Positions 31,486 through 34,788 of a DNA stretch of 64,000 bases are shown here, piece after piece. The position numbers and the translations under genes are program-made. Origin of the DNA: Archangium primigenium (GTDB taxonomy: Bacteria > Myxococcota > Myxococcia > Myxococcales > Myxococcaceae); the NCBI RefSeq assembly GCF_016904885.1, contig NZ_JADWYI010000001.1, positions 8,737,224 through 8,801,223 on the forward strand. Reading direction: 5' to 3'. Each line of letters starts with the position of its first letter. Position 1 is the first letter of the stretch. The notes beneath the pieces were generated by a model, which saw only the letters and a program-made list of their open reading frames with translations, searched no databases and was not told the origin of the DNA.

Positions 31486-31570
31486 GACCGGCCACCTAGC
31501 ATGTCCAAAGCTTGCGTGCGCGACGGCTCTGGGCGTCAATCGGGGGCCCCCTCACCCCAAGGACCTCCCC

Positions 31571-32377
31571 GTGCTCACGACCCTGGTCTCCGTGATGACG
31601 CTCGCGCTGCTGACGGCCGCGCCCGTGGACGCCGGCGGGCCCACCTGCCGCGCCATCGACGGGCACGTGGCGTGCGGCTACCAGTGCAAGTCCGACGGAC
31701 AGCGGGTGCGCTGCGCCCAGACGCCCCAGGGCACCTGCCAGGTCATCGACGGGCAGGCGGTGTGCTTCGATCCCCCCGCCTTCATCGTCCGCCTCTATGG
31801 CGACGCGCTGCCGCCCCCCGAGTGCAAGACCATCGACGGCCAGGTGGGCTGCGGCTACCAGTGCGCCGTCCAGGCCGGCAAGGTGAAGTGCGCGCGCACC
31901 CCGGCGGGCACCTGTGGCACCCGCGCCGGGGAGATCGTCTGCTTCGATCCGCCTCCCCACGTGTACGCCGTGTACGGCAAGGCCACGCCGCGCGCCGAGT
32001 GCAAGGGGTACGACCAGGACGTGGCCTGCGGCTACAAGTGCACCCAGGGCGCCGGCCAGGTCGCCTGCAACGCCACGCCCCTGGGCGTGTGCAAGAGCGA
32101 TGGCCTCCAGCTCAAGTGCTTCGATCCCCCCGCCCAGACGCTCTGTGCCTGGGGCAAGTCCCTGCCCCCCTTGCAGTGCATGATGAGCGACGGACACCCG
32201 GTGTGTGGCTACGGCTGCACCAAGTCCTACGCCAAGGCCGCCTGCGCCGCGACGCCCAAGGGCCTGTGCAAGGTGTTCGATACCGAGGTGCACTGCTTCG
32301 ATCCGCCCGCCGCCCAGGACGCGGATGCCGCCTGCCTGAACATCCTGGGAATGGCCACGCTGGACTCCGTCCGGTGA
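31571..32377 (+). CDS. Secreted protein of four exact six-cysteine repeats
   Basis: 268 residues from GTG 31571, eight bases after AAGGA; ATG 31595 is an alternative. A leader, LVSVMTLALLTAAPVDAGG, points to export. The rest is four repeats starting at residues 26, 85, 144 and 203, a perfect 59-residue period with no gaps: a 44-residue core C-x8-C-x3-C-x8-C-x7-C-x8-CFDPP plus a 15-residue linker containing YG or WG. The core reads like CxxIDGxVxCGYQC...G.V.CAxTPxGxC...CFDPP. The even cysteine count suggests disulfide-rich extracellular modules, perhaps surface or matrix-bound. No known family is recognised. Confidence 0.82.
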   Translation: MLTTLVSVMTLALLTAAPVDAGGPTCRAIDGHVACGYQCKSDGQRVRCAQTPQGTCQVIDGQAVCFDPPAFIVRLYGDALPPPECKTIDGQVGCGYQCAVQAGKVKCARTPAGTCGTRAGEIVCFDPPPHVYAVYGKATPRAECKGYDQDVACGYKCTQGAGQVACNATPLGVCKSDGLQLKCFDPPAQTLCAWGKSLPPLQCMMSDGHPVCGYGCTKSYAKAACAATPKGLCKVFDTEVHCFDPPAAQDADAACLNILGMATLDSVR

Positions 32378-32457: not shown

Positions 32458-34788
32458 ATGGCGGAGGGAGACATCCGGCAGTACTTCGTGCGCAACGACA
32501 AGGGCGCCATCTGGGGACCCCTCGAGCGGGCCACCATCGAGCTGCTCATCGAGAACGGCGCCATCCAGGGTCGGCTCCAGGTGTCCGAGGACGGCATCAA
32601 CTTCGTCCTGCCCGGGCGCATGCCCCAGGTGCGTGACAGCTTCCCCCGGGAGATGTGGGGAGACGTCGTGCCGCCCGGAGCCGTTCGCGCTCCGCCGGCC
32701 GCCGCGCCCCAGGCGCCCGTGACGGCTCCGGCGCCCCACGGACCCGCGCCCGCGGGCGGCGTGCCCCTCGCCGGTCCCGGCATTCCCAAGCCCGGCACCC
32801 CCATCACCCGGCCTCCGCCGCCCGCCCGGCCTCCGGGTCCGCCTCCCGGAGCCCCGAAACCGGCCGCCGCCGGCGCTCCCGCCCCGGGCGCCCCGCCCCC
32901 AGGCGCGCCGAAGCCGGCCGCTCCCGCCGCGCCCCCTCCGGCCCGGCCGGCGACCCCGACCTCGCCCATCACCATGAGCGTCCCCACGGTCGCGCCGGAG
33001 ACCGTCGAGCCGCCTCCCGCCCAGGGCTCGCTCGCGGCGCACTCGCCCGTGCGCCTCTACGGCCTCATCGCCGCGGGCAACCAGACCGGCCTGCTCTCGC
33101 TCGTCCTGGCCGACGGCACCGTCGGCATCCACTTCCGCAAGGGCAACCCCGAGCTCATCGAGTCGTCCCATCCCGATGACGCCCTGGAGACCTGGCTCCA
33201 GCGCTCCAAGCTCGTCTCCCCCGAGCAGTACCAGCAGGCCGAGGCCGCCAAGGGCCGCTTCGGCGGCGAGGTGCTCGCGGCCCTGTTCGGCCTGGGCCTG
33301 CTCCAGCCCGCCTCGGCCTTCGCCCAGCTCGCGCAGCGCGCCCAGGGCATCCTGCTCAAGGGCCTGCGCGCCGAAGCGGGCAGCTTCACCTTCGAGCCCA
33401 AGGAATTGCCCGCCGCCAAGGCCATGCCCCTGGGCAACAAGTGGGCCGTGCTCAGCGACCTGGTGCGCCGCATTCCCAGCGCGGACCTGCGCCGTCTGCT
33501 CCAGCCCGTCATCGCCCTGCCGGTGATGAAGTCCAACGGGCACGTGGCCACCGGCGACCTGCGCCTCACCCCGCATGAGGTGCGCGTGCTCGCCCTCATC
33601 GACGGCGTGCGCTCCACGGCCCAGTTCCTCAACGACATTCCCCAGGACGCCGAGCACCTGCTGCGGCTCGTGTTCCTCCTCAAGGAGCTTGGGAGCGTGT
33701 CCTTCGCCGCCTCGCGTGCCCCCGCGCCCGAGGCCCCTCCGCCCGCCGCCAAACCCGCCGCACCGGCTCCGGCCGCCGCCCAGGCCCCCGCCGCCAAGCC
33801 CGCCGCGCCGGTCGCCAAGCCCGCCGCGCCCGCTCCCGCCGCCCAGGCCCCTGCCGCCAAACCCGCGGCTCCCGCCCCCGCCGCGCCGGTCGCCAAGCCC
33901 GCCGCTCCCGCTCCGGTCGCCAAGCCCGCCGCCCCCGCTCCGGTCGCCAAGCCCGCCGCCCCCGCTCCGGTCGCCAAGCCCGCCGCTCCGGTCGCCAAGC
34001 CCGCCGCTCCCGCGCCCGCTCCGATCGCCAAGCCCGCGGCCCCCGCCCCGGCCGCTCCCGCCCCGGCCGCTCCCGCCTCGGCCGCTCCAGCCGCCGCGAC
34101 GGGCGCGGGCGAACTGCCCGCCCTGCGCGAGCTCGCCCAGAAGATGAAGGAGCAGAACCACTTCGAGCGCCTGGGCGTGGGCGCGGACACCAATGGCCCG
34201 GCGGTGAAGATCGCCTACTTCAAGCTGGCCAAGCAGTACCACCCGGACACGCTGCCGCCCGGCGCGCCGCCCGAGTTGGAGAAGCTCAAGGCGGACATCT
34301 TCGCCTACATCGGCGAGGCCCAGCGCGTGCTCTCCGACGAGAAGAGCCGCGTGGCCTACATCGACGAGCTCAAGCACGGCGGCAACAAGGAGGCCGAGGT
34401 GGACGTGGAGGGCATCCTCAAGAGCGAGGACCTCTTCCGCCGCGCGGGCGTCTACCTCAAGAACCGCAAGTTCGCCGACGCGGCGAAGCTGCTCGACGAG
34501 GCCATCCAGCTCAACCCCGAGGAGGCCGAGTTCTACGCCTGGCGCGGCTACGCCCGCTTCTTCACCTTCGAGGACAAGAAGCAGGGCTTCAACGAGGCCT
34601 TCCGCGACATCCAGGTGTGCCTCAAGAAGAACGACAGGGTGGCCGCCGGGCACTACTTCCTGGGAGTCATCGCCAAGCTGTGTGGGGACACGAGCGGCTC
34701 GCTCAAGCACTTCCAGAAGACCGTGGAACTGCAGCCCAACCACATCGACGCGCAGCGGGAGATCCGCATGGCGGCCCAAAAGAAGTAG
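32458..34788 (+). CDS. GYF_2-like / DUF4388 (PATAN) / J-like / TPR multidomain protein
   Basis: 776 residues from ATG 32458. Order: an N-terminal GYF_2-like domain ([19 protein letters not shown]..., residues 8-55); a Pro/Ala linker (75-180); a PATAN/DUF4388-like domain ([29 protein letters not shown] onward, about 200-310) and a further helical domain to about 420; a second Ala/Pro/Lys linker with tandem 27-bp repeats; a J-domain-like helical module with HPD at 595-597 ([13 protein letters not shown]); and TPR-like helices ([33 protein letters not shown]). Such proteins are common in myxobacteria and link protein-interaction modules; the partner is unknown. Because of the HPD triad it could stimulate an Hsp70, but the first J helix looks atypical. 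It is probably cytoplasmic. Confidence 0.82.
33889..34023 (+). repeat. Tandem coding repeat, 27-bp unit
   Basis: Three 27-base units begin at 33889, 33916 and 33943, each encoding Val-Ala-Lys-Pro-Ala-Ala-Pro-Ala-Pro with one silent change. They are followed by a 21-base shortened unit at 33970 and a 33-base lengthened unit at 33991. Unit lengths are multiples of three, so slippage keeps the frame. The repeat makes a flexible, Lys-containing Ala/Pro linker in the middle of the DUF4388/J-like protein. Confidence 0.85.

Follow-up and report, generated by a model that had tools for sequence, protein, structure and literature searches.

Within the window, the whole 64,000-nucleotide stretch of Archangium primigenium DNA analysed here, positions 31571-32377 of the plus strand hold an open reading frame with no internal stops that encodes a cysteine-rich protein of four repeated units. 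A Shine-Dalgarno-like AGGA lies at 31560-31563, 7 nt upstream of the GTG start. That the frame is coding follows from its GC content at the first, second and third codon positions (0.64/0.54/0.94) together with the dN/dS ratios of the four-unit region, which range from 0.28 to 0.65 in 11 comparisons and equal 0.28 against each of three sequences of the same genus; the gene is conserved and under purifying selection. The features of the locus are the following.

31511-31540, no strand assigned: promoter-like element CTTGCG-N19-TCAAT, conserved between the divergent genes
31571-32377, plus strand: coding sequence of the four-unit cysteine-rich protein, 268 amino acids, GTG start, TGA stop, N-termini of orthologues align
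31571-31636, plus strand: hydrophobic, export-signal-like N-terminus, about residues 1-22, with a hydrophobic 10-mer of mean Kyte-Doolittle value 2.58
31646-31777, plus strand: unit 1, three C-x8-C hairpins (C26-C35, C39-C48, C56-C65), then FDPP
31778-31822, plus strand: linker 1, 15 residues, predicted helix 70-79 (AlphaFold2)
31823-31954, plus strand: unit 2, hairpins C85-C94, C98-C107, C115-C124
31955-31999, plus strand: linker 2, predicted helix 129-138 (AlphaFold2)
32000-32131, plus strand: unit 3, hairpins C144-C153, C157-C166, C174-C183
32132-32176, plus strand: linker 3, predicted helix 188-197, containing the extra C192 (codon 32144-32146)
32177-32308, plus strand: unit 4, hairpins C203-C212, C216-C225, C233-C242
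32309-32374, plus strand: C-terminal tail, containing the extra C255 (codon 32333-32335), the proposed partner of C192

The divergent neighbour is a gene of the TauE/SafE family (PF01925, E 1.3e-46). This gene, a DUF1877 gene and a downstream gene with DUF4388, DnaJ and TPR domains accompany the orthologue in all 18 named loci; none of these neighbours was seen at 12 deep loci, where the flanks were short (eleven four-unit relatives and L061, which lies at a contig end). A link to sulfur through the TauE/SafE-family gene was considered and not adopted, as the conserved order (18/18) is no evidence of function, and gene order at the 18 named loci indicates no functional partner. The downstream gene (32458-34788) encodes a single protein in which a DUF4388 domain and a DnaJ domain are combined with TPRs and a long stretch rich in Pro and Ala.

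Of 39 upstream regions, 38 contain the promoter-like element, that in the window among them, and a looser form of it turned up in one of 7,800 shuffles. Its spacing is 19 in 37 of these regions, and L028 reads 17 under a stricter variant and 19 when counted alike. At four Corallococcus loci (L037, L038, L039 and L041) the element lies only about 6-7 nt upstream of the start, so that a leaderless transcript is possible there.

Register and spread of the cysteine array

Cysteines stand at residues 26, 35, 39, 48, 56 and 65 and are repeated at exactly +59, +118 and +177, giving four 59-residue units of the pattern C-x8-C-x3-C-x8-C-x7-C-x8-C in exact register, as claimed by the initial annotation. 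Chance does not account for this spacing, since among 200,000 shuffles of the protein the six-cysteine pattern was absent from 199,980, occurred once in 20 and occurred twice or more in none. The 44-residue unit cores share 20-25 of 44 residues in pairwise comparison. The CFDPP motif and the 15-residue linker are present as they had been described, except that unit 4 precedes the C-terminal tail and not a linker. The two extra conserved cysteines had gone unmentioned in that reading, and the linker is now predicted to be helical.

By the strict pattern, the 80 distinct ORFs of the family comprise 52 with four units, 22 with three and 6 with two, a count in relatives that the initial annotation had proposed as a check. 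The same annotation held that no insertion or deletion had occurred in any copy, and this stands for every one of the 39 distinct close four-unit sequences (that of the window is one of them), each of which has strict units with periods of 59/59/59. It does not extend to more distant relatives, which carry small indels: 11 deep four-unit relatives (L050-L060) show mostly one-residue changes in hairpins or linkers, unit periods in other architectures range from 53 to 71, and over the 80 ORFs the 8-3-8-7-8 spacing is exact in 260 of 286 units and not in the other 26. Because hairpin and linker lengths vary in this way outside the close set, strict spacing is, judging from these relatives, a property of one clade.

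Within the 39 close sequences, mean identity is 83% for unit 1, 74% for unit 2, 61% for unit 3 and 75% for unit 4. Concerted evolution or recent duplication of units was rejected for this set, where identity between units at the same position is 0.61-0.83, versus 0.43-0.50 between different positions. Against the deep relatives identity is 0.24-0.34 whichever positions are compared, so positional orthology does not show at that distance.

Besides this gene, the genome itself has one paralogue, the three-unit L002. An order-level search with the whole protein (E 0.001) matched 81 of 145 genomes, and a phylum-level search with a unit profile at the same E-value matched 88 of 195, a few of them marginally; one of the 88, G173 (L134), showed no recognisable unit on reading. 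Three further hits, L121, L125 and L126, likewise showed none. At 1e-6, 84 of 384 relatives searched gave a match, all of them from the same phylum or nearer, where probably about 190 of the 384 lie outside the phylum. Searches in two other phyla matched 0 of 2 and 1 of 111 genomes, and the single match among the 111 (at 1e-4) contained no recognisable unit. In the phylum of a genome that bears DUF6464, 3 of 244 genomes matched, two of them marginally and with internal stops; the third, L124, has one clear unit with 9-residue hairpins. That phylum is probably the cyanobacteria, since a Synechococcus control matched. Used as a query, the L124 protein found 2 of 329 genomes, namely itself and one relative at 81% identity.

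A contig scan found 18 loci titled Archangium, Pyxidicoccus, Myxococcus, Corallococcus and Citreicoccus, which we take to be Myxococcaceae of the Myxococcota, plus one titled Comamonas. The latter, L048, from a record titled 'Comamonas sp. KCTC 72670', has the orthologue in a Myxococcus-like gene order, and the name of the record looks wrong. No tblastn match to the protein was found among 72,556 plasmid and 50,697 phage records, nor to a more consensus-like pair of units among the plasmid records, and a search of viral contigs for a relative of another consensus-like pair gave three pattern matches, none of them confirmed. A mobile origin was rejected within these plasmid, phage and viral-contig collections.

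Probable hairpin composition and disulfide pairing

The 59-residue units singled out by the initial annotation are real, yet the elementary repeat looks smaller. A C-x8/9-C beta-hairpin seems to be the true building block; each unit has three, with connectors of 3 and 7 residues. This is suggested by the turns in predicted models, by the likeness of the hairpins in register and by changes of whole hairpins in relatives. AlphaFold2 gave a full-length model with mean pLDDT 82.3 and pTM 0.74, and a single-unit model with mean pLDDT 86.9 and pTM 0.66. These values support the fixed, cysteine-braced fold that had been suggested from the spacing. The rod-like array that went with it is made plausible by the repeated strand and helix pattern and the pTM of the full-length model, and is weakened by two of the five full-length models, which reached a pLDDT of only 44-46. 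When DSSP strand ends were compared by hand with cysteine positions, the turn lay midway between both cysteines in all 12 hairpins of the full-length model (a turn of two residues in 10 hairpins and of four in 2) and in all three hairpins of the separately predicted unit. In a hairpin with a two-residue turn, cysteines so placed occupy a non-hydrogen-bonded position, which can accommodate a disulfide across the strands.

Within a unit, the three hairpins also resemble one another. In the 77 of 260 units retained after removing those at least 70% identical, the summed score for likeness in register was 7.4, which none of 2,000 column permutations reached; for the single hairpin-hairpin comparisons, the score was reached by 0, 1 and 0 of 2,000 permutations. 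Relatives change, moreover, by whole hairpins. Three of them (L129, L130 and L137) have four hairpins, spaced 8-3-8-7-8-3-8, and one (L132) has five, spaced 9-3-9-7-9-3-9-7-9. Where the first loop of a three-hairpin array has 9 residues, all three loops do so in 7 of 8 cases. Only these three four-hairpin arrays remain of 57 apparent ones; in the other 54 an extra cysteine behind a unit and the first cysteine of the next unit mimic a hairpin. In unit 3 of the paralogue L002, C1 and C2 are both missing and the other four cysteines are kept. Three other unit rows are irregular: one is cut short where its contig ends, and two differ in length and retain their cysteines.

Because relatives gain cysteines in pairs and L002 has lost both of those of one hairpin, the disulfides most likely run C1-C2, C3-C4 and C5-C6. 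The joint loss in L002 would amount to a natural double change that supports pairing within hairpins, with its occurrence in a single case, one of 297 distinct unit sequences, counted against it.

Two further cysteines lie outside the units. Equivalents of both C192 and C255 are found, as the only two additional cysteines, in 50 of the 52 four-unit ORFs (39 close and 11 deep), at +9 after the last cysteine of unit 3 and at +12 or +13 after that of unit 4, and the same pair is present in L061, the ORF cut by a contig end. The two four-unit exceptions are L062, with no extra cysteine, and L071, with one located elsewhere. Only the +9 cysteine is held by 16 of the 22 three-unit ORFs and by L002, which counts as two-unit by the strict pattern; the other six three-unit ORFs hold none. 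C192 and C255 are probably bonded to each other and may in this way staple the tail onto linker helix 3. Counted against such a staple are the two four-unit ORFs that lack the pair and the 16 three-unit ORFs (L072, L074-L082 and L084-L089) that have 19 cysteines from the first unit onward, an odd number. The odd cysteine of these three-unit paralogues could, for its part, form a disulfide-linked dimer.

Comparison with known families and folds

None of the libraries searched has a curated entry for the domain, in agreement with its having gone unrecognised in the initial annotation. Pfam and NCBIfam returned no convincing match to the whole protein, and scans of 48 units against Pfam, NCBIfam and PHROGs gave weak matches only, the best of the 48 scans in each case having an E-value of 0.0059 (Pfam, a defensin-like model), 0.05 (NCBIfam) and 0.007 (PHROGs); family cut-offs were compared for the first unit only, which passed none. 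Sequence matches in the PDB to ribosomal S16/uS9 (E 0.013) and to SAKe6AR (E 0.0052, over 12 positions) were judged to be chance. Foldseek against the PDB found nothing significant, its best E-values being 0.16 (whole model) and 3.3 (single unit), and of the 151 and 107 chains compared by VIA-align none reached a Z of 2. Such a missing match is no proof of a new fold. The best match in a BFVD fold search had E 0.037, a probability of 0.91 and a TM-score of 0.23 by query length. Among the papers listed by searches of the freely accessible literature, none was recognised as a description of the repeat.

The commonest weak Pfam match, in 5 of 48 units, is DUF6464 (PF20065), with a best E of 0.0089, and 0.2 for the whole protein. 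The likeness lies in a C-x-Y...RCAxxPxGxC stretch, which is similar to the unit between C2 and C5. Against the curated cut-off of 25 bits, the protein scored 12.9, unit 1 scored 17.2 and L120 scored 15.9, and a DUF6464 search of the genome itself found none (0/1). In L122, the one DUF6464 member read, by eye, there are 10 residues from the cysteine before RYNA to the cysteine of RCAINP, against 12 (3+C+8) in the unit, and there are neither tandem units nor three C-x8-C hairpins.

The protein might instead be a tandem array of protease-inhibitor or toxin-like domains with interlocked disulfides, of the pacifastin or knottin type. In favour are its six cysteines per roughly 40 residues, its repeated copies, its probable export and, among the weak Pfam matches, the defensin-like model (3 of 48 units) and one for bromelain inhibitors (1 of 48 units, E 0.061). 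We consider such an inhibitor or toxin array improbable. Pacifastin-like domains are likewise small, six-cysteine and often tandem, and are described, as far as the accessible part of the source goes, by an invariant C2-N-C3 motif and a four-residue C5-x-P1-P1'-x-C6 loop (PMC13388995). The 8-3-8-7-8 spacing does not fit this plan: all 48 aligned units have C2-G-x-x-C3 instead, with G11 invariant, and the C5-C6 loop has 8, 9 or 10 residues in 286 of 286 units, so that membership was rejected on both motif and loop length. The gain and loss of cysteines hairpin by hairpin favours, in addition, pairing within hairpins over an interlocked arrangement.

In its general architecture the protein resembles the secreted cysteine-rich repeat peptides (SCREPs), which have secreted, disulfide-rich domains in tandem and which the accessible part of another source presents as a collective label, coined from animal venom toxins, for many predicted fold types (PMC6262176). 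Tandem cysteine-rich domains are present here too, a likeness to a class and not a family that implies neither homology nor shared function. The protein would belong to a known kind, the secreted cysteine-rich repeat proteins, and its predicted fold is possibly new. At about even odds, we would see in it an undescribed extracellular fold family of disulfide-clasped C-x8/9-C hairpin ladders with alternating 3- and 7-residue connectors. Such ladders would lengthen one hairpin at a time (3, 4 or 5) as well as one unit at a time (1 to 4), and the family would have its centre in the myxobacteria and their phylum, with a rare outlier in another phylum, probably the cyanobacteria.

Probable export and possible role

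A hydrophobic stretch (a 10-mer of mean Kyte-Doolittle value above 1.8) lies no more than 45 residues ahead of unit 1 in 79 of 80 family ORFs, the sole exception being L061, cut by the contig end. It is followed by a loose small-x-A pattern in 67 of the 80, and no lipobox was seen by eye before unit 1. The n-region of the window's protein has no K or R, which is atypical for a signal and was counted against export. On balance, export of the four-unit protein is probable; as for a secretion signal of the SCREP kind, what it shows is a hydrophobic N-terminus. The same hydrophobic N-terminus argues against a cytoplasmic metal-binding repeat protein with the CGYxC pairs as ligands. Every unit does have paired cysteines in C2-x3-C3, but the cysteines vary as hairpin pairs and not as C-x3-C pairs, and no zinc ribbon is evident among the 11 Pfam families weakly matched by units; we regard metal binding of this kind as very improbable.

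The reading we favour, with a probability of roughly 0.6, is that of an exported, disulfide-clasped hairpin rod of four modules that acts as a structural or binding scaffold. After Sec export, the mature chain would form a row of four beta-hairpin modules, each consisting of three C-x8-C hairpins joined by connectors of 3 (GYx) and 7 (AxTPxGx) residues, with a short linker helix behind them. Within a hairpin, both cysteines would stand opposite each other and be bonded in the pairing given above, with C192-C255 as a thirteenth bond. Fixed module length and helical linkers would make the array stiff. It could act, in the periplasm or extracellularly, as a structural or binding scaffold that resists proteases, and its likeliest binding face would be unit 1, the most conserved. 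The scaffold role, the stiffness and the location are guesses, as is a function as stiff scaffold or binding array in general, drawn from the anatomy and from the unequal conservation of the units (83, 74, 61 and 75%).

An alternative with the same hairpin modules would be a multivalent ligand-binding array, in which each unit binds a target (a glycan, a peptide, or the surface of prey or kin) and the copies provide avidity, an idea put forward for SCREPs. Units 1, 2 and 4 are conserved by position (83, 74 and 75%), units are far closer to those at the same position in other species, so the positions look functionally distinct, and the number of units differs among relatives. The residues common to 48 units, on the other hand, are Cys, Gly and Pro, and nearly Thr and Asp, in which no common binding set is evident, and we hold such an array to be possible and somewhat doubtful.

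If the hairpin-rod reading is correct, an uncurated and widely conserved extracellular domain would be added to predatory, multicellular bacteria, and its growth by single disulfide-bonded hairpins would offer a simple, testable case of the evolution of disulfide-rich modules. The four-unit protein explains by itself no known myxobacterial behaviour. The hairpin module might, in addition, be of use in protein design as a compact scaffold.

Some relatives carry hairpins behind other N-terminal regions. In L129, L130 and L137 four hairpins follow a lipoprotein-like region, and in L133 only two hairpins are present, then a stop; the region in these four weakly resembles DUF2799 (E 0.0053, in L130 only and short of the cut-off). 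L145, L131 and L138 combine units of 9-residue hairpins with a preceding N-terminal region of TPR-like appearance; in L145, the only one of the three scanned, a TPR_19 match has E 0.0026, likewise short of the cut-off.
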